From Maricaulis alexandrii (GTDB lineage: Bacteria; Pseudomonadota; Alphaproteobacteria; Caulobacterales; Maricaulaceae): a stretch of DNA of 64,000 nt. The notes beneath the pieces were generated by a model. It saw only the letters and a list, made by a program, of their open reading frames with translations, was not told the DNA's origin and ran no database searches. Below, piece after piece: positions 26,694 to 42,953 of this stretch. The stretch's first letter is position 1; every line of letters starts with the position of its first letter. The position numbers and the translations under genes were made by a program. The stretch covers positions 186,001 to 250,000 of the forward strand of contig NZ_SWKP01000003.1 of assembly GCF_005871165.1 (NCBI RefSeq), written 5' to 3'.

Positions 26694-26877
26694 GATATCT
26701 TCCCCGTTATCGTGCCGGTCCGATCGGGCGGCCGGTCTGTTCTTGATTCCACGACCTCTATCCCTGCGGCATCATGGCGCGTGGGGGCAAGGGCGTAACG
26801 GGGATTATCACCGGTCTTTGTGCGGCGTGTGAAGTCGCTCACTTGCCAGACACGAAGTTTGCGGTAGTTAGCGCGCC

Positions 26878-27903
26878 ATGTCCTATCACACCTCCCTGAC
26901 CAGCCGTGCGGTCTCCAACTGGCTGCTTGTCGTGGCCTTCCTGGTTGTGGCGATGATCATTGTCGGCGGTACGACCCGCCTGACCGATAGCGGCCTGTCG
27001 ATCACGGAGTGGAAGCCGATCTCCGGCGCCATCCCGCCGCTGACCCAGTCCGACTGGGAGGAGGAATTCCGCCTCTACCAGCGCACCACCGAATTCCAGG
27101 AACAGAATTCCGCCATGACGCTGGCCGAGTTCGAGCTGATCTTCTGGTGGGAGTGGGGGCACCGCCAGCTGGGCCGGCTGATCGGTCTGGTGTTCTTTGT
27201 CCCGCTGGTTGTCTTCTGGATGCGGGGCCAGCTGAGCGCGCGTCTCAAACCGCGCCTGCTCATCCTTCTGGTGATGGGTGGATCGCAGGGCGCGATCGGC
27301 TGGTGGATGGTGGCCTCCGGCCTGGTGGACCGTCTCGATGTCAGCCAGTACCGGCTCGCCACCCATCTGGGCATGGCCTTCATCATCCTGGGCTATTCGC
27401 TCTGGCTGTCGCTGGAGGCGCGGTTCGGACCGCCGCCCCTGCGACGGGGCACGCTGACCGGCCTGTCCTTCGGCCTGCTCGCCCTGGTCTTCCTGCAGAT
27501 CATCCTGGGCGCCTTCGTGGCCGGACTGGATGCCGGGCGCATCTACAATACCTGGCCGCTGATGAATGGGGACCTGATCCCGGAAGGCTATCTGGCGGGG
27601 ATGAGCTTCTTCCCGGCCGTTTTCGAGAGCCATGCCGCCGTGCAGATGCATCACCGCTGGACCGGCTATCTCGTGGCGCTTGCCGTGGCGGCCTATGCGG
27701 CCAAGCTCTGGTTCGAGCCGCGGGTCTCGCTGAAACCCTTCATGATCATTCTGCCGGCCCTGGTCATTGCCCAGATCGGTCTGGGCATTGCGGCCCTGCT
27801 GGCCGTGGTGCCGCTGAGCCTGTCGCTGCTGCACCAGTTCGGCGCGGTGCTCCTCTTCATCGGCACACTGTGCGCCGCCTGGACAGCCCGGCGTTCGGTC
27901 TAG
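26878..27903 (+). CDS. ctaA: heme A synthase (COX15/CtaA)
   Basis: Eight-helix inner-membrane protein that oxidises heme O to heme A for aa3-type cytochrome oxidase. The 341-residue protein is the COX15 type: GGTTRLTDSGLSITEWKP (about 23-40), EFELIFWWEWGHRQLGR (about 84-100), NTWPLMNG and MHHRWTGY. The histidines in these segments are the heme ligands. It joins hemA and hemB as the third heme gene of the window but is transcribed alone, with its own terminator. Confidence 0.95.
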   Translation: MSYHTSLTSRAVSNWLLVVAFLVVAMIIVGGTTRLTDSGLSITEWKPISGAIPPLTQSDWEEEFRLYQRTTEFQEQNSAMTLAEFELIFWWEWGHRQLGRLIGLVFFVPLVVFWMRGQLSARLKPRLLILLVMGGSQGAIGWWMVASGLVDRLDVSQYRLATHLGMAFIILGYSLWLSLEARFGPPPLRRGTLTGLSFGLLALVFLQIILGAFVAGLDAGRIYNTWPLMNGDLIPEGYLAGMSFFPAVFESHAAVQMHHRWTGYLVALAVAAYAAKLWFEPRVSLKPFMIILPALVIAQIGLGIAALLAVVPLSLSLLHQFGAVLLFIGTLCAAWTARRSV

Positions 27904-27921
27904 ACCGTCACCCGACGACAC

Positions 27922-27952
27922 AAAAAAGCCCGGGCCTGGACCCGGGCTTTTT
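27922..27952. terminator. bidirectional intrinsic terminator between ctaA and the phytase-like gene
   Basis: A6, GCCCGGG, a 6-base loop, CCCGGGC, then T5. The A-run on one side and T-run on the other make it suitable for both converging genes. Confidence 0.92.
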
Positions 27953-27973
27953 CTGTTTTTCAGCGGGGCCCGC

Positions 27974-29074
27974 CTATTCGGCGACCGGACCCTCACCGGT
28001 GATGACGGCCCGCGAAAACGCATCGCGCGAGATCACCTTGAGGCGCTGATCGTCCTCATCGAACACGGCGAGCATGCCATTGGCATAGGCGGTGAAGCCG
28101 AAATTCGCCATCGAGGCATCGATCGCACCGGGCTGTTCGATCCCGGGCGTGGACAGGCCGTCGATGACATCAATGTCGAAATGCGGTTCCAGCGTGCGGC
28201 CGTCGAGGCTCATCACGGTTTCGCCGGACCCGTCCGTGGCGAGGACCAGGCGGGAGCCGGAAAATTCCGACACGGAGAGCGAGGAGGCGCGGGCCGGGCT
28301 TTCGGCCAGCACATTGCCATTGGCATCGAGCCGGGCCAGACCACCGGCCGGGCTGAGCGTGTAGATCTCGCTGTCGAAGGCGTCGCACTGGCGGGCCGGA
28401 GCGGGCAGGTTGAAGCGCCGCAGGCTTTCCACCGACAGGGCGTCCTCGCCGGCATCGCGCACACGCCAGACTTCCGCGCTGGCGCCGGTGCCCAGAACCA
28501 CCAGATCGACATAGCCTGCGCCTTCGCGCAGCAGGCAGATACCGGAGACGCCGTCCGCGGCCTCGACCGCGCCCAGCGGCAGGTCCAGCACGCGCGCGCC
28601 GGCCCGGACCACGGCATAGCCGAAGACCTGGCCATTGTCCGGAGAGGCGCCGAAAATCAGCGGCAGGCTTTCGCCGCGCAGCTCGAAGTCCGGGGCGACC
28701 GCGATCGAGCTGAGCCGGGCGCCGGCATGCCGCGTGACGAGTTCCCCGTCCAGATTGAACAGGTCGAGACCGCCTTCGCGCGGCGCCGCGACGACATAGC
28801 CCAGAGAGGGCGCATCGGGATCCGGCAGGAAATCGACATCGCCGCCGCCGCCCTGCACGCCGGTGAAGGCAGCGGTGACGAGGACTTCGACCGTATTGGC
28901 GTCCGGGCCCTGTTCCGGCAGGTCCGGTTCCTCGACCGGATTATTGCAGGCGGACAGGGCCAGCAGGCTGGCGCCTAGAGCGAAGGCTGAGGCCAGGGAC
29001 CGCGCACTGCGAATGTGCGACCGGGATGTTTTTGCACGTTGAAGAACAGGGTCGAACCGTCGGGACTGAAACAT
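27974..29074 (-). CDS. phytase-like beta-propeller lipoprotein
   Basis: A 366-residue protein. It has a basic N-terminal region, a hydrophobic core and the lipobox LALSAC (Cys about 43), followed by an acidic linker. The rest is a repeated strand pattern. GYVVAAPREGGLDLFNLDGE matches the bacterial 3-phytase propeller, where GTDKxGGLxVYDLDG is usual. Calcium-ligand residues cannot be judged by eye, so activity on phytate is uncertain. The ATG at 29074 is preferred over the TTG at 29083; either overlaps the PhoX gene by about 100 bases, and no in-frame ATG lies later before the signal core. It probably works with PhoX in phosphate scavenging. Confidence 0.7.
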   Translation of the reverse strand: MFQSRRFDPVLQRAKTSRSHIRSARSLASAFALGASLLALSACNNPVEEPDLPEQGPDANTVEVLVTAAFTGVQGGGGDVDFLPDPDAPSLGYVVAAPREGGLDLFNLDGELVTRHAGARLSSIAVAPDFELRGESLPLIFGASPDNGQVFGYAVVRAGARVLDLPLGAVEAADGVSGICLLREGAGYVDLVVLGTGASAEVWRVRDAGEDALSVESLRRFNLPAPARQCDAFDSEIYTLSPAGGLARLDANGNVLAESPARASSLSVSEFSGSRLVLATDGSGETVMSLDGRTLEPHFDIDVIDGLSTPGIEQPGAIDASMANFGFTAYANGMLAVFDEDDQRLKVISRDAFSRAVITGEGPVAE

Positions 29075-30366
29075 GGACCACAAATCTCGCTTTTATCACC
29101 ATCGGGGCCGGAGGCCGCGTTGCGGCCGATGGTATACACCTCGCCTTGGGGCGTCACGCCGCGGATGTACTGTTCTGCATCTCCGTCTTCAACCACGATG
29201 AGATCACCCCAGGGCGCGACACACAGATTGTCGCAAGCCTCCATCACGGCGTCGTCATCGCTTTCGAAGAAGAGCTGAAGCCGGCCGCCAGTCTCGCCCG
29301 GCTGGTAGCGCCAGATCTGGCCCAGCCGGCGCGGACCGCCGTCGGTGCAGGCGAAATAGCATTCGCCGTCGCCCCACCACAGGCCTTCGCCACGGGTGAA
29401 CTGGGCCGCGCCTGCCACGACGCCGCGATCCGCCAGATCGGCATTCGGCGCTTCCACATCGTCCAGGTCGATCCAGTCGACCTCCATCCACTCGCCCACA
29501 CGCACTGTCCGGTTCTGCCAGTTGCGGGTGTCCAGCGACGGACGGCCCCGCACGGCCAGGCCCTGCAGGCGGCCGCCTTCGGCATAGCGTTCCGGCACAT
29601 TCGGGATGAAGCGGTAAAAGAGGGCGCGGTTGGAGCGGTCCTCGGTCTCATAGGCAATCGAGGTGGCCGGATCGACGGCCACGGCCTCGTGACGGAAACG
29701 GCCCATCGCCTTGAGCGGAACCGGCTCGACCAGGCCGCGGGCCTCGGCCGGGACTTCGAAGACATAACCGTGCTCCACGCCGGCGGCCTGGCCGGCATTG
29801 CGTTCGGTTTCCTCACAGCTCAGCCAGCTGCCCCAGGGCGTCGGTCCGCCGGCGCAATTCACTTCGGTGCCGACGAGGGAGAGGAATTGTTCCTCCACGG
29901 TGAGCGTGCCCGGATCGAGCACGAGATGGGTCGTGCCACCCAGATGCGGTTCGCGGTCCGAAGCCCAGTCATGCACCCGGTCCCGTTCGATCTGGGCAAG
30001 GCCTTCCGCATCGGGGCCGAAGGGCGATTTGTCGAGCTCATTGGCGCGCAGTTCATGATTGCGGATCAGGACGATCTTGCCATCAGCGCGCTGGAAGCAG
30101 GCCATGCCGTCCGGATCCCCCGGCACGATCAGTCCATCGGTCATCGCGTCGCCGGTCTGGGAGAGCACCTGATAGGTGAAGCCCTCCGGCAGATCGAAGA
30201 GTTCGTTCGGGTCACGGACCAGTCCGCCCAGTCCCTCGACCTGGTTGAGATAGCCCTGGCGTACGGCACCGCCCGTATCATGCTGGCGCTGACAGGCGGC
30301 CAGACCGGCGAAGGCGAGGGAGGTGGCGGCAGTGGACTGCAGGAAATTGCGACGGGACAGGGACAT
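28975..30366 (-). CDS. phoX: PhoX-family alkaline phosphatase (DUF839), Tat-exported
   Basis: A 463-residue member of the PhoX/DUF839 family of calcium-iron phosphatases. The N-terminus MSLSRRNFLQ is a twin-arginine signal followed by a hydrophobic stretch ending LAACQ, possibly also a lipobox. Family segments include RNHELRAN, AGGPTPWGSWLSCEET, GRFRHEAVAVDP, YETEDRSNRALFYRF, GEGLWWGDGECYFACTDGG and the C-terminal CFSPDGSTLFFNVQ. The phytase-like lipoprotein overlaps its 3' end. No obvious Pho box was found in the 60 bp upstream. Confidence 0.88.
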   Translation of the reverse strand: MSLSRRNFLQSTAATSLAFAGLAACQRQHDTGGAVRQGYLNQVEGLGGLVRDPNELFDLPEGFTYQVLSQTGDAMTDGLIVPGDPDGMACFQRADGKIVLIRNHELRANELDKSPFGPDAEGLAQIERDRVHDWASDREPHLGGTTHLVLDPGTLTVEEQFLSLVGTEVNCAGGPTPWGSWLSCEETERNAGQAAGVEHGYVFEVPAEARGLVEPVPLKAMGRFRHEAVAVDPATSIAYETEDRSNRALFYRFIPNVPERYAEGGRLQGLAVRGRPSLDTRNWQNRTVRVGEWMEVDWIDLDDVEAPNADLADRGVVAGAAQFTRGEGLWWGDGECYFACTDGGPRRLGQIWRYQPGETGGRLQLFFESDDDAVMEACDNLCVAPWGDLIVVEDGDAEQYIRGVTPQGEVYTIGRNAASGPDGDKSEICGPCFSPDGSTLFFNVQKHPGRTFAVRGPWPQPSL

Positions 30367-30578
30367 GAGTCGAGCTCCGGGCTGGAAATTTAGTCTCGGA
30401 AATACAAGGACTTCGCGACGCGAATATGACGGTGCTGCGGAATGCGGTATTATTACACCGCACTGCTAGGTGCATAAAAACACGGCCAAAATCCGAAGGT
30501 CGCTTGACCGAGTGCGAAATCCCCTCTAAACGGCGCGCTCGAATTCAACCCGAGCCCCCCAAAGGCCTGAGGATTATT
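30367..30578. promoter_or_regulatory. divergent phoX/rplM region with a candidate rplM promoter
   Basis: A -35-like TTGACC (30504-30509) and a -10-like TCTAAAC (30525-30531) are 15 bp apart, close to the Caulobacter housekeeping pattern TTGAC...GCTANAWC, about 48 bp before the rplM ATG. Further up lies an inverted repeat TGCGGT (30443-30448) / ACCGCA (30457-30462). Its regulator is unknown. Confidence 0.5.
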
Positions 30579-31043
30579 ATGAAGACCTATTCCGTTAAAC
30601 CGGCGGATGTCGAGAAGAAGTGGGTCGTGATCGACGCAGAAGGTGCCGTTGTCGGTCGCCTCGCTGCCTACATCGCCACCCGTCTGCGCGGCAAGCACCG
30701 TCCGGACTACACCCCGCATGTCGACATGGGCGACAATGTCATCGTCGTGAACGCTGACAAGGTCGTCTTCACCGGCAACAAGCGTAACGACAAGCGCTAT
30801 TACTGGCACACCGGTCACCCGGGTGGCATCAAGGAAACCTCTCCGGCCAAGCTGCTGGACGGCCGTTTCCCGGAACGCGTTGTCGAGAAAGCCGTGCTGC
30901 GCATGCTGCCGAAAGACAGCCCGCTGGCCCGTCAGCAATTCTCGAACCTGCGCGTTTACGCCGGTGCCGACCACAAGCACGAGGCTCAACAGCCGGAAGT
31001 GGTCGATTTCAAGTCCATGAACTCCAAGAATACGCGAGGCTGA
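30579..31043 (+). CDS. rplM: 50S ribosomal protein L13
   Basis: A 154-residue ribosomal protein binding 23S rRNA early in large-subunit assembly. [39 protein letters not shown] and the KVVFTGNK segment are characteristic. The ATG at 30579 gives the standard N-terminus MKTYSVKP. It is followed by rpsI after one base, the universal L13-S9 operon. Confidence 0.97.
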
Positions 31044-31044
31044 T

Positions 31045-31542
31045 ATGAGTGAAGAAGCCCGCTCGCTCGAAGACCTGAAGGACGTCATGAAAGACGGTGG
31101 CAGCGATGTTGCCGTTGCTGACGAGGCGATCCCGACCGAGCCCCAGATCGACGAACACGGCCGCTCCTATGCGACCGGCAAGCGCAAGAACGCGGTCGCC
31201 CGCGTCTGGATCAAGCGCGGTTCCGGCAAGATCACGATCAACGGCCAGGAACAGGAAAAGTATTTCGCCCGTCCGGTCCTGCGCATGCTGCTCCAGCAGC
31301 CGCTGGAAACCGCCGAGCGCGTGAACGAGTTCGACATCGTTGCCACCGTCAAGGGTGGTGGCCTGTCCGGTCAGGCCGGTGCCGTGCGTCACGGTATCTC
31401 CAAGGCTCTGACCCTGTTCGAACCGGGCCTGCGCCCGGTCCTGAAAGCCAATGGCTTCCTGACCCGCGACAGCCGCGTGGTTGAGCGTAAGAAGTACGGC
31501 CGCGCGAAAGCCCGCCGCTCCTTCCAGTTCTCCAAGCGCTAA
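31045..31542 (+). CDS. rpsI: 30S ribosomal protein S9
   Basis: A 165-residue ribosomal protein whose C-terminal tail reaches the P-site. Conserved segments are [22 protein letters not shown] (about 44-65), [19 protein letters not shown] and the end [17 protein letters not shown]. The acidic N-terminal extension of about 40 residues is common in Alphaproteobacteria. The last 30 bases of the gene plus the terminator are duplicated 1.7 kb downstream (33245-33341). Confidence 0.97.
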
Positions 31543-31609
31543 GCTTACCGAACAGACCCGAATGCGAGACGGGCGGTGCTTCTGGCACCGCCCGTTTTTT
31601 GTGTTGGGG
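31513..31609 (+). repeat. direct repeat copy 1: rpsI 3' end plus terminator
   Basis: 97 bp covering the last codons of rpsI, the spacer and its terminator. It aligns without gaps to 33245-33341, with about 17 mismatches by eye (roughly 82% identity). The shared landmarks are AGCGCT-A/T-AGCTT, GAACAGAC, CGAATGC and GGCACCGCCCGTT. The two copies bracket the LysR/methyltransferase pair. Confidence 0.88.
31569..31600 (+). terminator. intrinsic terminator of rplM-rpsI
   Basis: ACGGGCGGTGC, loop TTCT, GGCACCGCCCGT, then T5. A degraded copy of the same hairpin occurs at about 33300-33330. Confidence 0.92.
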
Positions 31610-31614
31610 CGTCG

Positions 31615-32520
31615 CTACCCGGTCTGTGTAAGGGCGTCGCTCAGACCCTCGGCCAATGTGTCGAAGACCAGCCGGATCTTCCGGCTCGTGTGCAATTCGC
31701 GGTGCGTAACCAGCCAGACCGGTACCGGGAGACGGGGCAGGGACGGGAAGACGGGTTCCAGCTCCGGGTAGAATCTCAGCATGTCGCGCGTGACAAAGCC
31801 GAGACCGAAACCGCGCTGGATCAGGGCCATGTAGGTCGGACCGCTTTCCGAGGTGACGCGGAAGTTCTCGGTGGTCAGGTCGAGACCGAGCTCATGCATG
31901 ACGTCCAGCAGGCGAGGGCTGCGCTCGAACCCGACGAAGTCGCACTGGCTGAGTTCTTCCAGGGTTTTGGGTCGGCCCACACGGTCCAGATAGGCCGGCG
32001 CAGCGTAGAGGGCGGCGGAAGTCTCGCCCAGGAGCCGGGCAATCAGGTCGGGCTGCTCTGGCCGGCCATGCCGGATGGCGATATCGGCTTCGCGCTTGGT
32101 CAGATCGCGCACATCATTCGAAGCAATGATCTCGATCTGAAGCTTGGGCGCCAGGGCCCGAAGCCGCTCCAGGACCGGCAGCAGGAAATGGATGGCCATC
32201 ATGTCGGTCGACGTGATGGACACAAAGCCTTCCACGGACTGGGCCTGTCCCGAGGCCGTCAGTGAAATCCGGTGGGCGGCATCCCCCATGGTCCGCACAT
32301 GGTCGACCAGTTCGAGCGCGGCTTGGGTTGGGGTCATGCTTCGCCGGCCCCGTTCGAACAGCGTCACGCCCAGATCCGCTTCCAGAGCCGTGATCTGGCG
32401 GGACAGGGTGGGTTGGGTTTGGCCCAGCGCCCGGGCCGCTGCCGAAAACGAGCCTTCCTCGACCGTCGCCAGGAAAGCGCGAACGTGGTTCCAGTCGAAG
32501 CGAATACTCTGCCAGTTCAT
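31615..32520 (-). CDS. LysR-family transcriptional regulator
   Basis: A 301-residue regulator. The helix-turn-helix is at residues about 9-67 (FLATVEEGSFSAAARALGQTQPTLSRQITALE), followed by the LysR effector domain with the usual FLLP, EADIAIRHGRP and GFGLGFVTRDM segments. Its stop codon lies 5 bp after repeat copy 1. It is divergent from the methyltransferase gene with 77 bp between them, the classic layout of a LysR regulator and its target. The effector is unknown. Confidence 0.92.
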   Translation of the reverse strand: MNWQSIRFDWNHVRAFLATVEEGSFSAAARALGQTQPTLSRQITALEADLGVTLFERGRRSMTPTQAALELVDHVRTMGDAAHRISLTASGQAQSVEGFVSITSTDMMAIHFLLPVLERLRALAPKLQIEIIASNDVRDLTKREADIAIRHGRPEQPDLIARLLGETSAALYAAPAYLDRVGRPKTLEELSQCDFVGFERSPRLLDVMHELGLDLTTENFRVTSESGPTYMALIQRGFGLGFVTRDMLRFYPELEPVFPSLPRLPVPVWLVTHRELHTSRKIRLVFDTLAEGLSDALTQTG

Positions 32521-32597
32521 TGATTTACGTATATCAGATGCAGGAAAAAGACCATTTTTATCGCAAAAATGTATGGGTAAACAGACATCTCTGACAC

Positions 32598-33275
32598 ATG
32601 GCTAAGGATGATCAGGGAATGGGTGACAGCAAGGACCGGCGCTTCTGGGACAAGATTTCAGAGAAGTATGCCGCGGATCCGATCAAGGACATGGAGTCCT
32701 ACGAACACAAGCTGGAGATGACCCGGGGGTGTTTCACCCCGGAGTCGACCGTGCTGGAATTCGGTTGCGGTACGGGTGGAACGGCCTTGCTGCATGCTCC
32801 GTTCGTGAAACACATACTGGCGACCGATTTCTCCGGTGAGATGCTGCGTATCGCCGAGACCCGCAAGGCCGAAGCCGGTGTTGAAAACGTGACCTTTCGC
32901 CAGGCGCGGCTGGAGGATATCGACCCGGCCACCGACGGCCCGTTTGATGTGGTGATGGGGATGTCGATCCTTCACCTCGTCCGGGATCGGGCTGAGACCC
33001 TGGCAAGAGCCCGCGACCTGCTGAAACCGGGCGGACGGCTGGTCACATCAACCGTCTGCCTCGGAGACGGGTTCTGGTTCCTGATTCCGATCATTCCGAT
33101 CGCCCAGGCCCTGGGTCTGTTTCCGGTCTTGCGCGTGTTCGGGGCGAAACGCCTCAAACAGGACATGCAGGACGCCGGCTTCGAGATCACCTATGAATGG
33201 CGGCCCGGCCCGTCCAAGGCCCTGTTCCTGGTGGCACGAAAGCCGGCCGCTTCTTCCGGTTCTCAAAGCGCTTAG
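32598..33275 (+). CDS. class I SAM-dependent methyltransferase
   Basis: A 225-residue methyltransferase. SAM motif I is VLEFGCGTGGTAL (about 52-64), the acidic end of strand 2 is ILATDFSGEML, motif IV is FDVVMGMSILHL, and LLKPGGRLVTSTV follows. A hydrophobic segment (GFWFLIPIIPIAQALGLFPVL) may face a membrane or lipid substrate. The last nine residues (217-225, AASSGSQSA) and the stop codon are encoded by the duplicated rpsI tail, read in a different frame. The substrate is unknown. It is likely controlled by the divergent LysR gene. Confidence 0.88.
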   Translation: MAKDDQGMGDSKDRRFWDKISEKYAADPIKDMESYEHKLEMTRGCFTPESTVLEFGCGTGGTALLHAPFVKHILATDFSGEMLRIAETRKAEAGVENVTFRQARLEDIDPATDGPFDVVMGMSILHLVRDRAETLARARDLLKPGGRLVTSTVCLGDGFWFLIPIIPIAQALGLFPVLRVFGAKRLKQDMQDAGFEITYEWRPGPSKALFLVARKPAASSGSQSA

Positions 33276-33341
33276 CTTGCTGAACAGACTCGAATGCAGG
33301 ACGGGCTGTGGTTATGGCACCGCCCGTTCTTCGTTTCGGGG
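33245..33341 (+). repeat. direct repeat copy 2: displaced rpsI tail plus decayed terminator
   Basis: The second copy of the 97-bp segment at 31513-31609. It contains the methyltransferase stop codon at 33273-33275. Its hairpin (GGGCTGTGG facing GGCACCGCCCG) has lost several pairs and its T-run is broken (TTCTTCG), so it is a weak terminator at best. Confidence 0.88.
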
Positions 33342-33542
33342 ATGATCGTTCCGTCATCGGGAATCCCCCTCATCCGCCCCTTTGGGGCACCTTCTGCCGC
33401 GAGGGGAGAAGGAGGGCATTGAGCTCTACGGGAACTCCCTCTCCCCTTGCGGGAGAGGGTGGCGCGTAGCGCCGGGTGAGGGGCGTCCGCGGAGCGGACC
33501 AGAGGAAACTTATCCCCACCCCCAACCGCCTCGCATAATCTC

Positions 33543-33830
33543 CCTCCCGCCTCTTCACCACTCGAGGCCCGGCCCGGTCAGGTCGGGGGTGATGAGTTAG
33601 CGGAGCGTTTCGGACATCCGGGCTGACCACCGGAAGGAAGGAACGGCTATCGAGGGGGTCCGCTGGTGCCAAGGGTTCGGCACCTGTACCCACCCGGTCT
33701 TGAATACCCGTCGAGAGGCGGGAGGAAATCTCCGTGTGCGGGACGCCTTTCGGTGTCACTCACAAATTCATTAGCGACGATGCCGGATGGCGTCCCGCAC
33801 TCCTCATACCGCCAGGTGTAACCACCGTGG
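33543..33830 (+). other. candidate structured noncoding RNA or structured DNA element
   Basis: Three helices can be drawn by eye. CCTCCCGCCTCT (33543-33554) pairs with AGAGGCGGGAGG (33714-33725). Inside it, GGTGCC (33665-33670) pairs with GGCACC (33679-33684), extended by GGGT/ACCC. After it, GTGCGGGACGCC (33736-33747) pairs with GGCGTCCCGCAC (33789-33800). A further hairpin CGCCAGGTG-TAA-CCACCGTGGCG lies just downstream. I recognise no known RNA family. Strand is unproven; plus is assumed because rpsI and lipA are on the plus strand. Confidence 0.4.
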
Positions 33831-33875
33831 CGCTGTTGGTCGTGTTGGGAAGACGATTTTGGAATTGAAGCAGAT

Positions 33876-34042
33876 TGTCATCCCGGATGGATGCCCGGCG
33901 CAGGCCGGGCGAAGGTCCGGGACCCAAACGCCCGGTGCGTTTCCAGCCGGTTTTGATGCCCGTACCTGCTTTCGGGCTTGCTCCGTGTTTATGGGTCCCG
34001 GCTCTGCGGCCTGCCGACGCAGGCCATTCGGCCGGGATGACA
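33876..34042. repeat. dispersed inverted repeat, unit D
   Basis: A 167-bp unit bounded by TGTCATCCCGG and CCGGGATGACA, the same termini as unit A at 2184-2373. It has internal GTCCGGGACCCA and TTATGGGTCCCGG boxes. The segment CTGCTTTCGGGCTTG...GTGTTTATGGGTCCCGG is nearly the reverse complement of the unit A core, so the two are copies of one element in opposite orientation. It ends 108 bp before lipA. Confidence 0.85.
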
Positions 34043-34149
34043 GAATGAAATGGTGAAATCGGTCATTCGGCGGCCTCTCTGCAAAATCGCATACCCCTCA
34101 ACAGTCCGATCAACTTGATGGAAAGCCCGCACGGGATTATGTGCAGCCC

Positions 34150-35127
34150 ATGGCCAATCTGATCGATAACACGGCGCGCAGCGCTGCCACCGAGGCCCGC
34201 GCGGCCCGTCACCCGGAAAAGCAGAAACGGGCGGATACGCCGGTCCTGCGCAAGCCGGACTGGATCCGCGTCAAGGCGCCCCTCGGCAAGACCTTCTCGG
34301 AAACCCAGAAGATCGTGAAAGAGGGCGGTCTGGTGACCGTTTGCGAAGAGGCGGGCTGCCCGAATATCGGTGAGTGCTGGGAACAGAAACACGCCACATT
34401 CATGATCCTGGGCGATACCTGCACCCGCGCCTGTTCCTTCTGCAATGTGAAGACCGGCCTGCCGGCCGCCGTCGACCATGACGAGGCCCGCCGTGTCGCG
34501 GAAGCCGTCGCCCAGATGGGGCTGAACCATGTCGTCATCACCTCGGTGGACCGGGATGATCTGGATGATGGCGGGGCCCAGCATTTCGTCGATGTCATCG
34601 AGGCCATCCGCGCGGCAACGCCGGGCACCACGATCGAGATCCTGACGCCGGACTTCCTGCGCAAGCCGGGCGCCGCCGAGCGCGTCATCGACGCCAAGCC
34701 GGACGTGTTCAACCACAATCTGGAAACCGTGCCGCGGCTCTATCTCTCCATCCGCCCGGGCGCGCGCTATTACCATTCCCTGCGGCTGCTGGAGCGCGTG
34801 AAGGAACGCGATCCGGCCCAGTTCACCAAGTCCGGCATCATGGTCGGCTTGGGGGAAAGCAAGGAAGAAGTCATGCAGGTGATGGACGATATGCGTTCCG
34901 CCGGCATCGATTTCCTGACCATCGGCCAATATCTGCAGCCGACCCGCAAGCACGCCGCCGTCGACCGTTTCGTGCATCCGGACGAGTTCAAGGCCTATGA
35001 GACCATCGCCCGGGCCAAGGGCTTCCTGATGGTGTCGGCAACGCCGCTGACCCGCTCGAGCCACCATGCCGGGGATGATTTCCGCAAGCTGCGCGACGCC
35101 CGCGACGCGCAATTGGCGCGCGGCTGA
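34150..35127 (+). CDS. lipA: lipoyl synthase
   Basis: Radical-SAM enzyme that inserts two sulfurs into octanoyl groups on lipoate-dependent proteins. The 325-residue protein has both iron-sulfur sites. The auxiliary cluster is [12 protein letters not shown] (C-x4-C-x5-C, about 64-75) and the radical-SAM cluster is CTRACSFC (C-x3-C-x2-C, about 92-99). The C-terminal [10 protein letters not shown] gives the conserved RSSxxA serine motif. The ATG at 34150 is preferred over the GTG at 34141. Confidence 0.96.
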
Positions 35128-35137
35128 CGGGTCGGTC

Positions 35138-35638
35138 GTGGCGGTCGAAACGCGTGAACGCCTGCGGTTGCTGCATGCGCCGGACGATCTCTTCGAACTC
35201 GTCCTCGACGTGCGGCGCTATCCCGGCTTCATCCCGCAGATCACCGCCATGCGGGTCCTCAAGGAAGCGCATGACGGTCCGCTGACCGATCTGACCGCCG
35301 AGGCCCGCGTGCGCTACAAATTCGTGGCCGAACGCTTCACCTCGCGGGTGCGGGCGGATGCGGTGCATCGCACGATCGATGTCAGTTTTGTCTCCGGCCC
35401 CTTCCGGGTGCTGGAGAATGCCTGGCGGTTCCACGCCCTGTCCGATGGCTCCACCCTGGTGGACTTCACCATCAAGGCGGAGTTCCGCAATGCCATCCTG
35501 CAAATGCTGCTGGAAGGCAATCGCGACCGGGCCGGGCGCATCCTGATCGGCAAGTTTTCCGCCGAGGCCGAACAGCGCTGTGAACCGGCCGGTGATCCCT
35601 CAAAGGATCTAGCTGAAGAGATCGACGCCCTCAGCTAA
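35138..35638 (+). CDS. RatA/COQ10-type SRPBCC protein
   Basis: A 166-residue START-like (polyketide cyclase/COQ10) protein, expected to bind ubiquinone or, as in E. coli RatA, to interact with ribosomes. Key segments are APDDLFELVLDVRRYPGFIPQ (about 13-33), the YKFVAERFTSRV strand, GPFRVLENAWRFH and VDFTIKAEFRN. The start is the GTG at 35138, 10 bp after lipA, giving MAVETRERLRLL; the longer frame overlaps lipA. Its 3' end overlaps the convergent cinA-like gene by 30 bases. Confidence 0.88.
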   Translation: MAVETRERLRLLHAPDDLFELVLDVRRYPGFIPQITAMRVLKEAHDGPLTDLTAEARVRYKFVAERFTSRVRADAVHRTIDVSFVSGPFRVLENAWRFHALSDGSTLVDFTIKAEFRNAILQMLLEGNRDRAGRILIGKFSAEAEQRCEPAGDPSKDLAEEIDALS

Positions 35639-36109
35639 CAGGTCGAGCGCCGTGGCGACACTGGCCAGGCGGACCGCATCGCGGCCGCGATCGCCGAAAC
35701 GCTGCACATGGGTGCGGGTCGCCTGATCGCGGCAAGCCAGTCCGAAATAGACCAGGCCGGCCGGTTTGCGTTCGCTGCCCCCCGGTCCCGCCACGCCGGT
35801 GATCGAGACGGTGATATCGGCATTCGAGCGCAGCAGGGTTTCCTTGGCCATGATCTTGGCGACTTCCGCCGAGACCGCGCCATGCCCCTCGATGATGCGC
35901 GCCGGAACGCCCAGCATCTCGGTCTTGGCCTCATTGGAATAGGTGATGAAGGCCCGGTCCACCACGTCGGAGGAGCCGGGGATTTCCGTGAGCAATCCGC
36001 TGACCAGCCCGCCTGTGCAAGACTCGGCCGTTGCGATCATCACGCCGGCGGTCCGTGCCCGGTCCAGCAGGGTTTCCGCCTGGTCGATAAGGGAGTGGTT
36101 GAAAATCAT
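35609..36109 (-). CDS. CinA C-terminal domain protein (PncC-type NMN amidohydrolase)
   Basis: A 166-residue stand-alone CinA C-terminal domain, expected to deamidate nicotinamide mononucleotide in NAD recycling. ATAESCTGGLVSGLLTEIPGSS (about 26-47), ITYSNEAKTEMLGV and SITGVAGPGGSERKPAGLVYFG are diagnostic. The N-terminal MoCF domain of full-length CinA is absent, as in PncC. It overlaps ispDF by 4 bases (ATGA), so the two are co-transcribed. It converges on the RatA-type gene. Confidence 0.92.
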   Translation of the reverse strand: MIFNHSLIDQAETLLDRARTAGVMIATAESCTGGLVSGLLTEIPGSSDVVDRAFITYSNEAKTEMLGVPARIIEGHGAVSAEVAKIMAKETLLRSNADITVSITGVAGPGGSERKPAGLVYFGLACRDQATRTHVQRFGDRGRDAVRLASVATALDLLAEGVDLFS

Positions 36110-37257
36110 GTCATCCTCGCCGTTACGATGGCTTGCGCGGCAAGCCCTTCGCCCCGCCCGGTGAAGCCGAGCTTTTCTGTTGTGGTTGCCTTGATATTCA
36201 CCCGCGCCATGGGGAGCTCCATGAGCTCGGCCAGACGGGCCTGCATGGCGGCGCGGTATTGTCCGACCTTGGGGCGCTCACAGATCAGGGTGACATCGAC
36301 ATGCACGGCCTCACCCCCGGCCTTCGCCAGGAGATCGAGGGCATGCAGCAGGAATTTGTCGGACGCGGCGCCGCGCCATTGCGGGTCCGAGGGCGGGAAG
36401 TGTTGCCCGATATCGCCGGCTCCGGCGCAGCCCAGAACAGCATCGGTGACCGCGTGCAGGCCGGCATCGGCATCGGAATGCCCCACCAGGCCGAGGCCTT
36501 CATGAAGCGCCACCCCGCACAGCCACATTGTATCGGCCGGCTCGAGCCGGTGAACATCGAAGCCCTGTCCGGTCACGGTGATGGCTGTGGACATGAGTTC
36601 GGCCTCGGCGCGCTGGAAGTCCTCGGGACGGGTGAGTTTGTAATTACCGCTCTCGCCGGGCACGGAAAAGACCGTGCCACCGGCCGCACGGATCACGGCG
36701 GCATCATCGGCAAAAGCCTGGCCGGCGGCCTGGTCGTGTGCCTGGCAGATTGTGTCGAGATGAAAGGCCTGGGGTGTCTGGGCGGCGCCCAGCGTCTCCC
36801 GGTCCACCGCCTCCAGGATCTCGCCGGACGCGTCGAGCCGCATCAGTGCGTCGGTTACCGGCATGACCGGGATCACGGCGCTGTGGGTCGCGAGGGCATC
36901 CGCCAGCCGGTCGATGAGGGCGTGCGAGAGGAAAGGGCGGGCGGCGTCATGGATCATGACCGCGTCCACACCGGCATCGGAGAGGGCTGCCAGCCCGGCC
37001 CGGACCGAGTCGGACCGCGTGGCCCCGCCAACAACTCGCCGGGTGACAAGGCCCAACTCCTCATCCACCGCGTCGAGCCGGGCGGTATCGTGCGGATGGG
37101 TGACGAGCACAATTGCAGTGAGGGCGGGATGGGCGGCGAGCGCCTGATAGCTGCGCGCCAGAACACTCCGTCCGGCAAGCTTTCGGAACTGTTTGGGAAT
37201 TCCGCCGCCAGCGCGCTCACCACGGCCGGCCGCGACAATGATGGCTCCGATCTTCAT
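36106..37257 (-). CDS. ispDF: bifunctional IspD/IspF isoprenoid enzyme
   Basis: Fused MEP-pathway enzyme of 383 residues. The IspD half (about 1-220), the CDP-ME cytidylyltransferase, begins IIVAAGRGERAGGGIPKQF. VMIHDAARPFL is its second landmark. The IspF half (about 223-383), MEcPP synthase, has metal ligands in GQGFDVHRL and GHSDADAGLHAVTDA, and ends IKATTTEKLGFTGRGEG. The fusion is typical of Alphaproteobacteria. The ATG at 37257 gives MKIGAIIV; the frame upstream has no homology. It is divergent from dusB, with 83 bp between. Confidence 0.95.
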   Translation of the reverse strand: MKIGAIIVAAGRGERAGGGIPKQFRKLAGRSVLARSYQALAAHPALTAIVLVTHPHDTARLDAVDEELGLVTRRVVGGATRSDSVRAGLAALSDAGVDAVMIHDAARPFLSHALIDRLADALATHSAVIPVMPVTDALMRLDASGEILEAVDRETLGAAQTPQAFHLDTICQAHDQAAGQAFADDAAVIRAAGGTVFSVPGESGNYKLTRPEDFQRAEAELMSTAITVTGQGFDVHRLEPADTMWLCGVALHEGLGLVGHSDADAGLHAVTDAVLGCAGAGDIGQHFPPSDPQWRGAASDKFLLHALDLLAKAGGEAVHVDVTLICERPKVGQYRAAMQARLAELMELPMARVNIKATTTEKLGFTGRGEGLAAQAIVTARMT

Positions 37258-37340
37258 CCCAAATCCTCGTCCATTGCCGCAACGCAGCATAACCGCTAGC
37301 TTATTTCGGCTTTCAACCCGTTCAGGATTAGTCCAGCCGC

Positions 37341-38336
37341 ATGCCCTTTGCCATTGGGAACCACAGGATTGCAAATCCGGCCATTCTGGCGCCGATGTCC
37401 GGCGTCACCGATTTGCCCTTCCGCTGCCAGGCTCAGGCCTTCGGAGCCGGCATGGTCGTGTCGGAAATGGTGGCCAGTGATGCCTTGGCGCGCGGCCGGG
37501 TCGACATGGTGCGCAAGGCGGCCCTGGATGCTTCCCTGGCGCCCTGTGTGATCCAGCTGGCCGGCCGTGAGGCACACTGGATGAGCGAGGGCGCGAAGAT
37601 CGCCGCCGATGCGGGCGCGGATATCGTCGACATCAATATGGGGTGTCCGGCGCGCCAGGTGACCAAGGGGCTGTCGGGCTCGGCGCTGATGCGGGATCTG
37701 GATCACGCGCTCACGCTGATCGAGGCCACAGTCGCGGCCGTCGACATTCCCGTGACCCTGAAAATGCGCCTAGGCTGGGATCATGACAGTCTGAACGCGC
37801 CGGAACTGGCCCGGCGGGCAGAGGATGCCGGTGTCCGGCTGGTCACCGTGCATGGCCGGACCCGCCAGCAATTCTACAAGGGCGAGGCGGACTGGGCGGC
37901 CGTTCGGCCGGTGAAGGAAGCCGTTTCGATCCCCGTGATCGTCAATGGCGACATTCATACCCTGGAGCATGCCCGCGACGCGCTGGAGCAATCGGGCGCC
38001 GATGCCGTGATGATCGGACGGGCGGCGCAGGGGCGACCCTGGCTGGTCGGCGAGATCGGCGCGGCCCTGATGGGCCAGCCCAAAACCACGGAATGGGCGG
38101 CCAAGGTTACGGCGCTGGGCGCCCAGTTCGACCTGTCCCTCGATCACTATGGCGATCATCTGGGCATCCGGATGATGCGCAAGCATTTCGCCTCCTTCAT
38201 GGACATCGAGGCCCGCGAGGCCGATCCGGACTGGTGCCAGGCGATCCGCGCAGTGCTGTGCCGCTCGGACCAGCCGGCGGACATTCACGAAACGCTGGGC
38301 CGCCTGATGGCGCCGGAAGGCCGGGCGGTCGCATGA
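37341..38336 (+). CDS. dusB: tRNA-dihydrouridine synthase (NifR3/DusB type)
   Basis: FMN-dependent reduction of uridines in tRNA D-loops. The 331-residue TIM-barrel protein has [12 protein letters not shown] near the start, the catalytic cysteine in [13 protein letters not shown] (about 99-110), [23 protein letters not shown] and IVNGDI. The old name nifR3 reflects its constant position before ntrB, as here, with a 4-base overlap. Confidence 0.95.
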
Positions 38337-39382
38337 GCGAGGCTCCGGTCACGGAAACGGCGGATCTGGCCGCCGAAATGGCGGCGATTCCGCTTTTGCA
38401 ATTCGCCCAGGATGGCGGCTTCATCTGGGCCAATACCCAGGCAGAGGAATGGCTCGGCCTGTCCCAGCGTGTGATGCGCAAGGGCCGGTTCGGCACGCAT
38501 TCACCGCTTTGCTCGCATCTGGCCGAGATCGTGGAACAGGCCTGCACGGCCCGCCGGACCGTGGTCGGGCTTGGCCTGGTCCTGGGGCAGGGCGGTCCCT
38601 TCGACCTTCATGCGCGCTGGTCCGATGAGAAGGGCAGTGTCACGCTCTCCGTCCTGCCGCACCGGGAAAGCGGGGCCCGGGCCTCCGAGGCGCCGGCCCT
38701 GGGTTTCGGCCGCATGCTGGCGCACGAACTCAAGAATCCGCTGGCCAGCGTTCGCGGGGCCGCCCAGCTGATCAAGCGCGAGACGGATATCGATGCGGCC
38801 GCCGAACTGGCGCATGTCATCATCCAGGATGTCGACCGGATCACGCGGCTGGCAGACCATTGGAGCCGGGTCGGCGATATCCGGCTGGGCGAGCAGAGCC
38901 CGATCAATCTCAATCATCTTGCCGTGGCGGCGATGGAATCGCTGACACGCGCCGACCGGGATGCGGCGGATATCCTGAGGGAGGGCTTTGACCCGTCCCT
39001 GCCCAATGTCTTCGGGGACCGGGATTTGCTGCTGCAGGTCGTTCTGAACCTGTTGCGCAATGCGCTGGATGCCGTGCGCGGTCAGGCTGATGCCCGGATC
39101 CGGGTCGAGACGCGTTTTGATACCGGACCGAAAAGCCGGACCGGTGCCAATTCCACACCGCTGGTCCTGAGTGTGCGGGACAATGGACCGGGCATCCCGG
39201 ATACGCTCGGTTCGGGCATCTTCACGCCCTTCGTGACCACCAAGCCGGCGGGTGAGGGGCTGGGCCTGGCCTTTGCCGCCCGCGTGGCCGCCCTGCATGA
39301 TGGTCAACTCGACTATGAAAGCCAGCCGGGACAGACCGTGTTTCATTTGCGTCTGCCGATTGCCAGAGAGGTATTGCCGTGA
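38333..39382 (+). CDS. ntrB: nitrogen sensor histidine kinase NtrB
   Basis: A 349-residue cytosolic kinase that phosphorylates or dephosphorylates NtrC under PII control. It has an N-terminal PAS-like domain (about 10-120), the H-box [18 protein letters not shown] (phospho-His in AHELKNP, about 130), the N-box [12 protein letters not shown]1 VRDNGPGIP and G2 GEGLGLAFA. The start overlaps the dusB stop (ATGA); a longer frame lies wholly inside dusB. It is coupled to ntrC by GTGA. Confidence 0.95.
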
Positions 39383-40641
39383 GCGCTCGCATCCTGCTCC
39401 TTGAGGACGATGAAAGCCTGAAGCTGATCCTGTCACGTGCGCTCGGCTCGGCGGGATACCAGGTCCGGGCGACCGCTTCGCCCGATACGGCGCTGGGTTG
39501 GATCCGCAATGGGGAAGGCGACCTTCTGCTGGCTGACGTCCTGCTCGACGGGACGAATTTCCTGGAGAATCTCGGTCTGGTCTCCCGGCTGCGTCCGCAA
39601 ATGCCGGTCATCGTGATGAGTGCGCAGGCGACGGCCTCCACCGCGATCAATGCGGCCAAGGGCGGCGTGTTCGAATACCTGCCCAAACCCTTCGACCTAG
39701 ATGACATGGTGGCCGCCGTCGAAGCGGCCCTGGGCGATGTGAAAACCTCCCAGCGCGCCCGGACCACGGATGAGCCGACCGGATTCATCGGTCAGTCGGT
39801 CGCCATGCAGTCGGCCTTCAAGGCGATTGCGCGGGCCGCGACGAGCCAGGCTCATGTCATGATCACGGGCGAGCCTGGCGTCGGCAAGCGCCAGGCCGCC
39901 GAGGCCCTGCTGCGGGCCCGCGGTATCGCTTCGGACGACGCCGTCGTGGTGACCCCCTCCAACACCGCTTCGGAAATCTTCGGCTCGACCCAGGCGGCCA
40001 AACAAGTGGTCTGGCTGCGGCTCGAAGAGTGGAGTGCGGACCAGCAGCGTGCCGCCCGCGATGCCCTGGATGGCGGCGGAGGCCGGGTCATCGCCACGGC
40101 CTCGCAGGCACCCTCCAGCCCGCTCGACACGCGTCTGGCCGCCCGTCTGAGCGAATGCATCATCACCGTGCCGCCACTGCGCGAACGCCGCAGCGATATT
40201 CCGGCCCTGTGCGAGGCGTTCCTGTCGCAATTTGCCCGCCGCGACCAGCAAGCCGTGGTGCGCCTGTCCAAGGAAGCGGTCGACTATCTCACCAACTCCC
40301 CGTGGACCGGCAATGTCGTGGAATTGCGCTCCGTCCTCTCGCGCCTGTCCCTCGCGACGCGGGGACGGGTGGCCTCGCTGGCGGATGTGGTGGATTCCTT
40401 GAAGACCGACAGTGGCGATGCCGCGGAGGAAATCTCCGTTCATGCCAACGCGCTGGCGGCCCTGGCCCTGTCCAGTCCGGATGCGCGGCAGGTCGCGGTT
40501 GATTCCGTGGAACGGGCCTTGTTCTCCCAGGCACTGGACCGCTGCAATGGCAACCGCTCCAAGGCGGCCGAGCTGCTGGGACTCAATCGCAATACGCTGG
40601 CCCGGCGCCTGGCAGAGCTGGACGAACCGGGTGAGGACTAG
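39379..40641 (+). CDS. ntrC: NtrC-like response regulator with a degenerate AAA+ domain
   Basis: A 420-residue nitrogen regulator. The receiver is intact (acidic pocket LEDDE, phospho-Asp53 in LADVLLDG, Lys103 in YLPKPF). The AAA+ domain keeps a Walker A-like GEPGVGK (164-170). It lacks the GAFTGA loop, and after SEIFG (198-202) runs straight into KQVVWLRLEEWSAD, where Walker B GGTLFLDE should be. About 25 residues are gone relative to enteric NtrC. The Fis-type DNA-binding helix is present (CNGNRSKAAELLGLNRNTLARRL). It should bind DNA but not activate sigma-54; Caulobacter NtrC likewise lacks GAFTGA. Confidence 0.93.
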   Translation: MSARILLLEDDESLKLILSRALGSAGYQVRATASPDTALGWIRNGEGDLLLADVLLDGTNFLENLGLVSRLRPQMPVIVMSAQATASTAINAAKGGVFEYLPKPFDLDDMVAAVEAALGDVKTSQRARTTDEPTGFIGQSVAMQSAFKAIARAATSQAHVMITGEPGVGKRQAAEALLRARGIASDDAVVVTPSNTASEIFGSTQAAKQVVWLRLEEWSADQQRAARDALDGGGGRVIATASQAPSSPLDTRLAARLSECIITVPPLRERRSDIPALCEAFLSQFARRDQQAVVRLSKEAVDYLTNSPWTGNVVELRSVLSRLSLATRGRVASLADVVDSLKTDSGDAAEEISVHANALAALALSSPDARQVAVDSVERALFSQALDRCNGNRSKAAELLGLNRNTLARRLAELDEPGED

Positions 40642-40708
40642 GGAGCCGGTGCGCTGGTCTGTGGCTGATGCGTAACGCGTGTTGATTTTGTGCAACGGGA
40701 GCGTAAAG

Positions 40709-40729
40709 ATGCGTGATTGACCCACGCAT
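40709..40729. promoter_or_regulatory. inverted repeat at the start of ntrY
   Basis: ATGCGTG (40709-40715) and CACGCAT (40723-40729) are perfect 7-bp arms with a 7-bp centre, overlapping the two candidate starts of ntrY (GTG 40713, ATG 40728). The outline TGCGTG-N7-CACGCA loosely recalls NtrC sites (TGCAC-N-GTGCA types). It could be an NtrC or NtrX operator. Confidence 0.4.
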
Positions 40730-42953
40730 GAGAGCGTCCTTGCCGCAATCCTCGACCAGAACCCTGATCCGGAACATTTCCCCGCAATCCGCGGCCCTGT
40801 TCGGTATTGGCTTCTTCGTCTCGCTCGGCTTGCTGGCGGCTTCGGCTTTCATCCTGCTCAATGAAGGCGGCCTGACCGGATCCCGCAGCCGCTATGCAGT
40901 CGGTATCCTGGTCGGAAATGCCGTTCTGATCACCGGCCTTGCCGGCGTGGTGACCCTGCGTTTCGTGCGCCGTTTCCGGGCCCGCCGCTTCGGCGAACCG
41001 GCACCGCGCCTGCACTTGCGTTTTGTGGCCCTATTCTCGATCGCTGCCGCCACACCTGCCATCCTGTCCGCCCTGTTTCTGGGGGCGGTGATCAGCCGCG
41101 GCGTCGATTACTGGTTCGGCAATCGCGTCTCGACCATGGTCGACCAGATGGAGACCGTGGCGCTGGGCTTCTACAATCGCGAAGCCGAGTTTGCCTCCGA
41201 CCAGTTGCGGGCCATGGCCTATGATCTGAGCCAGCCGGAAGCGGTTGACGCCTTCACATCAAGCCGGATCCAGTATGTGCGCTATTTGTCCAACCAGGCC
41301 GCCCAGCGGGGTTTTGTGGCAGCCTATCTGGTCGACGGGCGCGGGACGCTGCTGGCCCGGACGCAGTTTCGTCAGAATGAGGAATATGTCGCGCCATCCC
41401 CGCGCCTGTACGAGCTGGCCGGTGAGGGCGATGTGGCCGTGACCACGCCGGACACCTCGGCCGATGCCGCGGATGTCATGCGTTTGCTCTACCGGATCGA
41501 AGCCTATCCGGATGCCTATCTCTTCATTTCCCATCCGATGGATATCGCGCTCTTCCGACAGATGGGCGTGGCGCGGCGGGAATTGCGGGATGCCTCGCAA
41601 CAGGAAGGTCGCATACGCCAGACCTTTTACTTCCTCTATTTCGAGGTCGGCATTCTCTTGCTGATCGGATCGATCTGGCTGGCACTTACAGCCGCCACGC
41701 GGGTCGCCACTCCGGTCTCCCGTCTGGTGGCTGCGGCGGAACGCGTTCGGCGGGGCGATCTGGATGCGCGCGTCCAGATGGGGCGTGATGATGACGAAAT
41801 CTCCGCCTTGGCCCGGGCCTTCAACCGGATGACACGGCAATTGCGGTCGCAGCGCCGCGAGCTGATCGAATCCCACGCGGAGTCGGAAAAGCGACGAGCT
41901 TTCATGGAAGCCATTCTGGCCGGGGTGCGGGCCGGCGTGATCGGTCTGGACGGCGAGGACCACATCACGCTGATCAACCGGTCGGCGATTTCCCTGCTCA
42001 GCCCGGGTACGGACGACCTGATCGGTGTTGATATCGGAGAAGTGACTCCGGCCCTGGTCGAGATCGTCCAGCAGGCCCGCCGCCGTCCGGGGTCGGTCGC
42101 CGAAGGCCAGGTTGACCTGCACACCGATGACGAACAGGTCCGCCACCTCACCGTTCGCGCCTCGATGGACGAAGAGGCCGGGCTCGTCATCACTTTTGAT
42201 GATGTGACGCGTCTTGTCACAGCGCAGCGCAATGCGGCCTGGCGGGAAGTGGCGCGCCGTATCGCCCATGAAATCAAGAATCCGCTGACGCCGATCCAAT
42301 TGTCGGCCGAGCGCATCCGGCGCAAATACCGCGATGATATCGAGAGCGATGTTGAAACCTTCGACCGCTGCGTCGAAACCATCGTCCGGCAAGTCAGTGA
42401 TATCGGTCGCATGGTCGATGAGTTCTCCTCTTTTGCCCGCATGCCGCAGCCGAAAGTGGAACGCACGGAAATGACCGATCTGGTCAAATCCGCCGTCTTC
42501 ACCCAGCGGGTGGCGTCGCCGAATATCGATATTCCTTTCGATCAGCCGGGTGATCCGGTCTTCGCCCTGTGCGATGCGCGCCTGTCGAGCCAGGCCCTGG
42601 CGAACATCCTCAAGAATGCCTGCGAGAGCGTCAGTGCCCGCATGGACAAGGATGAGCAGCCCGGCCAGGTCGCGGTCGGCCTGTGGGCCCGCGACGGCCA
42701 TGCCGTGATCGAGGTTCAGGACAATGGGCTGGGCTGGCCGGTTCCCAACCGGGAACGGCTGACCGAGCCCTATATGACAACGCGCGAGAAAGGGACGGGT
42801 CTCGGCCTGGCGATCGTCAAGCGCGTGATGGAAGACCACAAGGGACGTCTGGAACTGGATGTGCCGGAGAACGGGGAAGGGGCAGTCGTACGCCTGGTCT
42901 TCCCGTTGGCCGACACCGCCACGGACCGGACCGAGTCCACGCAGGAGGCATGA
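40728..42953 (+). CDS. ntrY: nitrogen-regulation membrane sensor kinase NtrY
   Basis: A membrane histidine kinase of about 741 residues. Three N-terminal helices (within about 20-125) precede a periplasmic sensor region, then a fourth helix (YFEVGILLLIGSIWLALTA, about 305), HAMP, PAS (about 390-500), the H-box ARRIAHEIKNPLTPIQLSAERI (about 515) and the ATPase domain with NILKNACESV, VQDNGLGWP and GTGLGLAIV. Its partner is NtrX. The start is uncertain: the ATG at 40728 or the GTG at 40713; both fall in the inverted repeat 40709-40729. The gap after ntrC is 86 bp. Confidence 0.93.
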   Translation: MRASLPQSSTRTLIRNISPQSAALFGIGFFVSLGLLAASAFILLNEGGLTGSRSRYAVGILVGNAVLITGLAGVVTLRFVRRFRARRFGEPAPRLHLRFVALFSIAAATPAILSALFLGAVISRGVDYWFGNRVSTMVDQMETVALGFYNREAEFASDQLRAMAYDLSQPEAVDAFTSSRIQYVRYLSNQAAQRGFVAAYLVDGRGTLLARTQFRQNEEYVAPSPRLYELAGEGDVAVTTPDTSADAADVMRLLYRIEAYPDAYLFISHPMDIALFRQMGVARRELRDASQQEGRIRQTFYFLYFEVGILLLIGSIWLALTAATRVATPVSRLVAAAERVRRGDLDARVQMGRDDDEISALARAFNRMTRQLRSQRRELIESHAESEKRRAFMEAILAGVRAGVIGLDGEDHITLINRSAISLLSPGTDDLIGVDIGEVTPALVEIVQQARRRPGSVAEGQVDLHTDDEQVRHLTVRASMDEEAGLVITFDDVTRLVTAQRNAAWREVARRIAHEIKNPLTPIQLSAERIRRKYRDDIESDVETFDRCVETIVRQVSDIGRMVDEFSSFARMPQPKVERTEMTDLVKSAVFTQRVASPNIDIPFDQPGDPVFALCDARLSSQALANILKNACESVSARMDKDEQPGQVAVGLWARDGHAVIEVQDNGLGWPVPNRERLTEPYMTTREKGTGLGLAIVKRVMEDHKGRLELDVPENGEGAVVRLVFPLADTATDRTESTQEA

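Follow-up and report, generated by a model that had tools for sequence, protein, structure and literature searches.

A decayed second copy of the end of the ribosomal protein gene rpsI was found in Maricaulis alexandrii behind a LysR-type regulator and a methyltransferase (MT) gene, and the site looks like a genome-rearrangement scar rather than a mobile island. Very probably the gene pair is resident, the second tail begins at a microhomology junction and no site-specific element took part; this core is common to the two main readings that we consider. Our best reading, held tentatively, is that the pair was lost in a group of close relatives and regained by the present genome through an illegitimate junction at the microhomology. 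We slightly prefer it to duplication of the tail followed by collapse in the relatives, which is possible but less probable. The window analysed, 64,000 nucleotides long, is positions 186001-250000 of contig 1 of the genome labelled G000.

The two rpsI tails and the genes between them

The site comprised the following features (window positions):

31045-31542, plus strand: rpsI, ribosomal protein S9 (Pfam Ribosomal_S9, E 6e-49)
31502-31609, plus strand: tail copy 1 (90/108 against copy 2, E 1e-30)
31569-31595, plus strand: predicted rpsI terminator hairpin, then a T-run (-29.6 kcal/mol over 31560-31609, z -4.8)
31615-32520, minus strand: LysR-type regulator (Pfam HTH_1 and LysR_substrate)
32598-33275, plus strand: MT, SAM-dependent methyltransferase (Pfam Methyltransf_25, E 4.5e-19; Methyltransf_31; Methyltransf_11)
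33234-33244, plus strand: junction microhomology GCxCGAAAGCC, including the 8-bp exact run CGAAAGCC; also in rpsI at 31502-31512
33234-33341, plus strand: tail copy 2, decayed (15 private changes in 108); continues into sequence shared with G012
33273-33275, plus strand: MT stop codon TAG, from an A>T change at 33273
33301-33327, plus strand: decayed terminator hairpin of copy 2 (-22.9 kcal/mol over 33292-33341, z -3.4), T-run broken
33363-33483, plus strand: dispersed repeat, "REP-like" (a label coined here), with many matches in G000, G001 and G012
33502-33840, strand not assigned: dispersed repeat of about 330 bp; another copy lies behind rpsI in G001 and G012
34150-35127, plus strand: lipA, lipoyl synthase, right anchor of the site (Pfam LIAS_N and Radical_SAM)

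Copy 1 consists of the final 38 coding bases of rpsI with the stop codon, a spacer, the terminator and nine bases past the T-run. A preliminary description of the window had estimated by eye an ungapped identity of about 82% between 31513-31609 and 33245-33341, and this was borne out by measurement (80/97, 82%). The best other placement of 97 bases within the window gave 45/97 on the same strand and 46/97 on the opposite strand, so the similarity is well above chance; similarity at chance level had been named beforehand as a refutation of the islet. BLASTN widened the repeat to 31502-31609 against 33234-33341, a gapless match of 108 bp. When 121 bases spanning copy 1 were searched against the whole G000 genome, no third tail came up at E 0.01. 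Only LysR, which is convergent to rpsI and divergent to MT, and MT itself lie between the copies. The earlier account of exactly two divergent genes there stands as to their identity but not their boundary, as copy 2 starts before the MT frame ends and takes in the final 13 codons of MT together with the stop.

Copy 2 derives from the tail of the group formed by G000 and its nearest genomes, G001 and G012. The tails of copy 1, G012 and G001 showed 3 to 5 pairwise differences over the 108 sites (copy 1 from G012 at 3/108 and from G001 at 5/108), and copy 2 differed from these three at 15 to 19. Its spacer was the group's own with scattered changes, and the spacers of G017 and others differed. 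At tail site 104, copy 1 grouped with G001 and copy 2 with G012.

An assembly or binning artefact, or chance similarity, is highly improbable as a source of the repeat. G012 is fragmented (250 contigs, 65% complete), and its contig departs from the shared order past a dispersed repeat. However, the copies differ at 18/108 sites inside one 670-kb G000 contig, match at E 1e-30, and the site without the pair was also found in G001 (99% complete) within a 391-kb contig.

The gene pair among relatives and the empty sites

Nineteen Maricaulis genomes were searched, and rpsI was matched in 18 (none in G008, which is 69% complete). The order rpsI-LysR-MT proved usual, with the pair behind rpsI in 14 of the 18 rpsI-bearing genomes. 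It followed directly in 12 (G000, G002, G004, G005, G006, G010 and G013-G018) and with one gene between in G007 and G009. The intervening gene, which comes after the rpsI terminator and encodes about 310 residues, is by eye presumably a glycerophosphodiester phosphodiesterase, and no tail repeat was found between rpsI and LysR in these two genomes (L047, L048). In G003 (C24) and G011 (C153) the pair was kept together away from rpsI, so LysR and MT seem to travel as a unit. Outside the genus, LysR adjoined rpsI in 5 of the 12 genomes with a LysR match at E 1e-75 (G025, G027, G039, G041 and G045, all other genera of the same family). On this sequence evidence the pair is an old resident behind rpsI and no newcomer. 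The proposal that it entered the 3′ end of rpsI as an islet is thus not supported, the pair being found behind rpsI in 14 of 18 genomes.

The preliminary description had set against itself the case that every relative carries the pair and lacks copy 2. This held in part: no second tail was seen in any other Maricaulis genome that has the pair at rpsI, 13 in all, over the 303-8715 bases read beyond MT, but not all relatives have the pair. G017, for example, showed rpsI-LysR-MT-lipA with a single tail, its MT ending in CRKPG and a stop and lipA starting 225 bases later. G017 also had the LysR closest to that of G000 (83%), and no close pair-bearing relative, the candidate donor of a regained pair, was present among the 19 genus genomes. 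MT identity to 15 genus orthologues was 48-58%, compared with 80-83% for LysR to G017 and G013. Composition gave no clear signal of a foreign pair: GC was 64.1% in LysR, 60.9% in MT and 59.9-67.1% in ten neighbours, and GC3 was 0.79, 0.75 and 0.76-0.83, respectively, with MT at the low end.

The pair was not found in G001 or G012, with no LysR at E 1e-60 and no MT at E 1e-20 in searches of the whole genomes (99% and 65% complete, respectively). The empty site that the preliminary description had predicted does exist, since both genomes have one tail without the pair and G012 joins directly to the sequence past 33341. In G012, whose rpsI protein is identical to that of G000, tail and terminator lead without a break into the sequence present after 33341 in the window, and the match of copies 1 and 2 ends where pair-bearing G000 and empty G012 diverge. 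This right end of the repeat lies nine bases past the T-run. In G001 the one tail is followed by a different spacer, then by the same 330-bp dispersed repeat and lipA, the gene that in G017 comes after MT. The empty site is an absence of resident genes and not the ancestral state of the genus. A LysR remnant suspected by eye in the G001 spacer from a shared CTACCC was rejected (local alignment against 2000 shuffles, p 0.12).

Most of the spacer before lipA (33342-34140) matched dispersed repeats. The 330-bp repeat (33502-33840) had several copies in G000 at 83-95% identity and more in G001; no full-length copy was among the matches listed for G017, and no Rfam family matched it at E 0.1. In G001 the REP-like unit beside rpsI lay in the opposite orientation to that in G000 and G012. 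On G012 contig C225 (L033 2100-5395) the 330-bp repeat was followed by an 864-residue gene instead of lipA, which we take to be aminopeptidase-N-like; either the genome was rearranged here or the contig is a chimera with its join at the repeat. Directly behind the rpsI terminator of G014 (L038) there was a short 24-bp tandem repeat containing CTTTCGGGGTCTTTCAGACC.

A wider scan gave no sign that the rpsI terminator is an insertion hot spot, as had been suggested. There were 143 loci with an rpsI match, of which 139 were scanned, several genomes being represented more than once. A second tail occurred only in G000, at two overlapping loci of the window region. The next longest match was 37 bp at 84% (L114), followed by 28 bp (L125), with all others at most 25 bp; these short matches and the tandem repeat of G014 were disregarded. 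Many of the scanned loci held at most 1.4 kb behind the tail, so a copy as distant as copy 2 would be missed there.

The layout could also be the remnant of a site-specific element at the 3′ end of rpsI, which would have imported the pair with copy 1, displaced the native tail as copy 2 and lost its integrase later. Tyrosine integrases do use rpsI 3′ ends in Firmicutes (PMC5341023, PMC4701971, PMC5357655), the layout resembles theirs, and direct repeats of the rpsI 3′ end (108 bp, 90/108) are present here at both borders. Against such a remnant, 13 further Maricaulis genomes have the pair at rpsI with no second tail seen, copy 1 is the group's own tail and the repeat's left border coincides with a chance agreement with MT codons. 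The earlier remark that no integrase is present also agreed with our search, in which neither integrase nor transposase families were found among 14 Pfam-scanned proteins, a subset of the frames in 26842-42950. We consider this origin quite improbable. More generally, a mobile island appears unlikely, because the pair is of old residence, the 14 proteins include no integrase and no recurrence was seen.

The junction, the age of copy 2 and two possible histories

To the left of 33234, MT and rpsI showed no clear likeness. At the junction they share the 8-bp exact run CGAAAGCC, or 10/11 bases over GCxCGAAAGCC. These bases read A-R-K-P in MT, and rpsI uses another frame. In the four relatives read (G017, G013, G014 and G018), R-K-P sits 1-2 residues before the end of MT; the MT of G000 has nine further codons after it that are without counterpart in those four. 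Because the repeat begins where two unrelated genes agree, apparently by chance, over 8-11 bases, its left end bears what we interpret as the mark of an illegitimate join.

The description of copy 1 as functional and copy 2 as decaying was supported, copy 1 being intact and conserved and copy 2 having decayed at about the neutral rate. Copy 2 carried 15 changes in 108 that were absent from copy 1 and from the G012 and G001 tails, though two of them, at tail positions 3 and 12, lie next to the microhomology and may have come from MT instead of by decay. Across neighbouring genes, G000 and G012 differed by 0.336 changes per fourfold site, or about 0.17 for the G000 branch, from which 16.3 changes in 108 are expected on one neutral branch. 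The underlying total (450/1660, matches below 60% amino-acid identity dropped) includes some frames that are probably not genes; a ten-frame subset (407/1417) would lift the expectation to about 17 and leave the conclusion the same. Were copy 2 constrained like copy 1, at least 15 changes would have a probability of 3e-7. The ribosomal genes themselves are constrained, with 4/82 fourfold sites differing between G000 and G012 in rplM and 3/94 in rpsI. Within the former coding part of copy 2, stop included, 5 of the 6 changes fell at first or second codon positions of rpsI. Since its private changes amount to about one neutral branch length, copy 2 dates from about the split of G000, G001 and G012 and has been unconstrained for roughly all the time since.

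Copy 2 now supplies the stop codon of MT. The MT frame enters it and ends at a TAG that arose by a single A>T change; no stop was found in the equivalent frame of the copy 1, G012 or G001 tails. Its hairpin is predicted to be weaker than that of copy 1 (-22.9 against -29.6 kcal/mol) and its T-run is broken, and perhaps it serves as a terminator ending the MT transcript. A sub-threshold Rfam match to mir-26 on copy 2 (33293-33335, E 0.079) was taken as chance arising from the hairpin.

The order in which the three close genomes parted bears on how the site arose. They form nearly a trichotomy (site patterns 125:120:109, eleven genes, 7935 sites), as expected from fast splitting or DNA exchange. 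The eleven-gene tree weakly joined G001 and G012 (63/53; 67% bootstrap), and a protein tree of PhoX, rplM and rpsI instead joined G000 and G001 (80/81). The latter tree does not settle whether the G000 group is nearer to G017 or to the G014 clade. For the pair itself, the MT tree placed G000 with the G014 clade (94/92 with 20 rows; 92/90 with 16), and the LysR tree placed it with G017 and G013 (99/98). The different placements give a weak hint of imported MT sequence. Differing histories of LysR and MT were tried as an explanation and rejected, as neither clade test excluded the alternative (p-AU 0.094 for MT; 0.136 for the reverse test on LysR). As a side observation, G013 fell outside G017, the G000 group and the G014 clade in the PhoX/rplM/rpsI tree (96/99), which conflicts with its union with G000 and G017 in the LysR tree. 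Because the placement of G013 differs between these trees, LysR may have been exchanged, or may be changing fast in the G014 clade.

We suggest, tentatively, the following course of loss and regain. The pair would have been deleted in the ancestor of G000, G001 and G012, leaving rpsI, its terminator and then a repeat-rich spacer up to lipA. At about the time when the three lineages parted, the G000 lineage would have regained the pair from a chromosome of the same group, by ordinary homology in rpsI on the left side and, on the right, by joining the MT 3′ end to the recipient's own rpsI tail at GCxCGAAAGCC. A single event of this kind would restore the pair and leave the recipient's tail as copy 2, which would then be free to decay into its present state as the MT stop codon and perhaps a weak terminator. 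The attraction of this course is that a single join accounts for the presence of the pair, for the two tails and for where the repeat starts and stops. The order of loss and regain, the donor and the terminator role are our inferences. The preliminary description had offered, as a second option, recombination with DNA from a relative carrying its own rpsI end; this is retained as one of our two best readings. The left anchor would be rpsI, which was available for it, though the recombination tract could not be delimited as copy 1 matches the group tail.

Several observations weigh against loss followed by regain. Copy 1 differs from the G012 tail at only 3/108 sites, so only a very close relative could have served as donor, and the nearest LysR outside G000 is the one at 83% noted above. 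The conflict between the MT and LysR trees is not significant. Past the terminator, the G001 spacer is unlike those of G012 and copy 2, and a single shared deletion would therefore also need later turnover of repeats in G001. The grouping at tail site 104, described above, is a further difficulty. Finally, a duplication first and a collapse later would account for the same data.

In such a course, the pair never left the G000 lineage. Already in the group ancestor, a copy of the tail and terminator would have been joined to the 3′ end of MT at the microhomology, by templated insertion or by tandem duplication and loss of the second pair, and G001 and G012 would then have lost the pair by homologous deletion between the 108-bp tails. 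A direct repeat of 108 bp is a ready substrate for deletion, and collapse between the tails would yield a clean empty site such as that seen in G012. The grouping of the G000 LysR with G017 and G013 (99/98) and the divergence of copy 2, which fits an origin at the time of the split, also favour this order. One collapse could serve both genomes, since the eleven-gene tree weakly joins them; two would be needed if G000 and G001 belong together as in the PhoX/rplM/rpsI tree, and the different spacer of G001 is a further objection. The copying step requires two new junctions, or else a tandem duplication that lacks its second LysR and MT: G000 had one match each (LysR at E 1e-60, MT at E 1e-20), and DNA searches likewise found one match each. 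Moreover, G012 has 0/15 of the private states of copy 2, so its collapse must predate most of the decay. We regard duplication before collapse as possible, but somewhat less so than loss followed by regain.

Significance and comparison with known systems

The site offers a roughly dated case of how a two-gene block can come and go next to an essential gene with no dedicated mobility genes involved. The conservation of the ribosomal gene makes its unconstrained tail copy readable as a clock, and the stop codon taken from that tail is a small, clear case of the remaking of a gene end. The case also cautions that duplication of a gene end, with one tail displaced, is no proof by itself of an integrative element. 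Much more speculatively, and in our opinion improbably, the rpsI tail and terminator may serve as a homology handle that lets close Maricaulis lineages lose and regain the LysR/MT cassette again and again without an integrase, a left-over tail being reused as the stop and terminator of its neighbour. A limited literature search for Maricaulis together with rpsI returned nothing.

The closest parallels in layout are integrative elements. The McRImecD islands of Macrococcus lie at the 3′ end of rpsI, carry a tyrosine integrase, are bounded by imperfect direct repeats of 160-163 bp and measure 16-18 kb, one of the two forms being able to circularise (PMC5341023). Like the present pair, their cargo is enclosed by two imperfect rpsI 3′ ends, the distal one displaced (PMC5341023). 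Here, in contrast, the cargo is two genes, is accompanied by no integrase that we found and is normally resident without repeats. Streptococcal ICEs and IMEs share with our site the rpsI 3′ end, which is their target (PMC4701971, PMC5357655). They differ in belonging to another phylum and in possessing an integrase and transfer genes, none of which lie between the copies here.

Direct repeats can generally recombine and delete what lies between them. Such a deletion would convert the arrangement of G000 into the empty site seen in G012, but it removes repeats and cannot alone create copy 2. We think that homology-facilitated illegitimate recombination, known from laboratory transformation, is the process that fits best, with the difference that here it would be read from a fixed scar and from a donor that is itself inferred. 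In transformable bacteria, the illegitimate join is made on segments of 3 to 10 bp (PMC6382021). The likeness lies in the combination of RecA-dependent homology on one part with an illegitimate join of a few bases on the other, which at the present site would have been the 8 bp of exact agreement.
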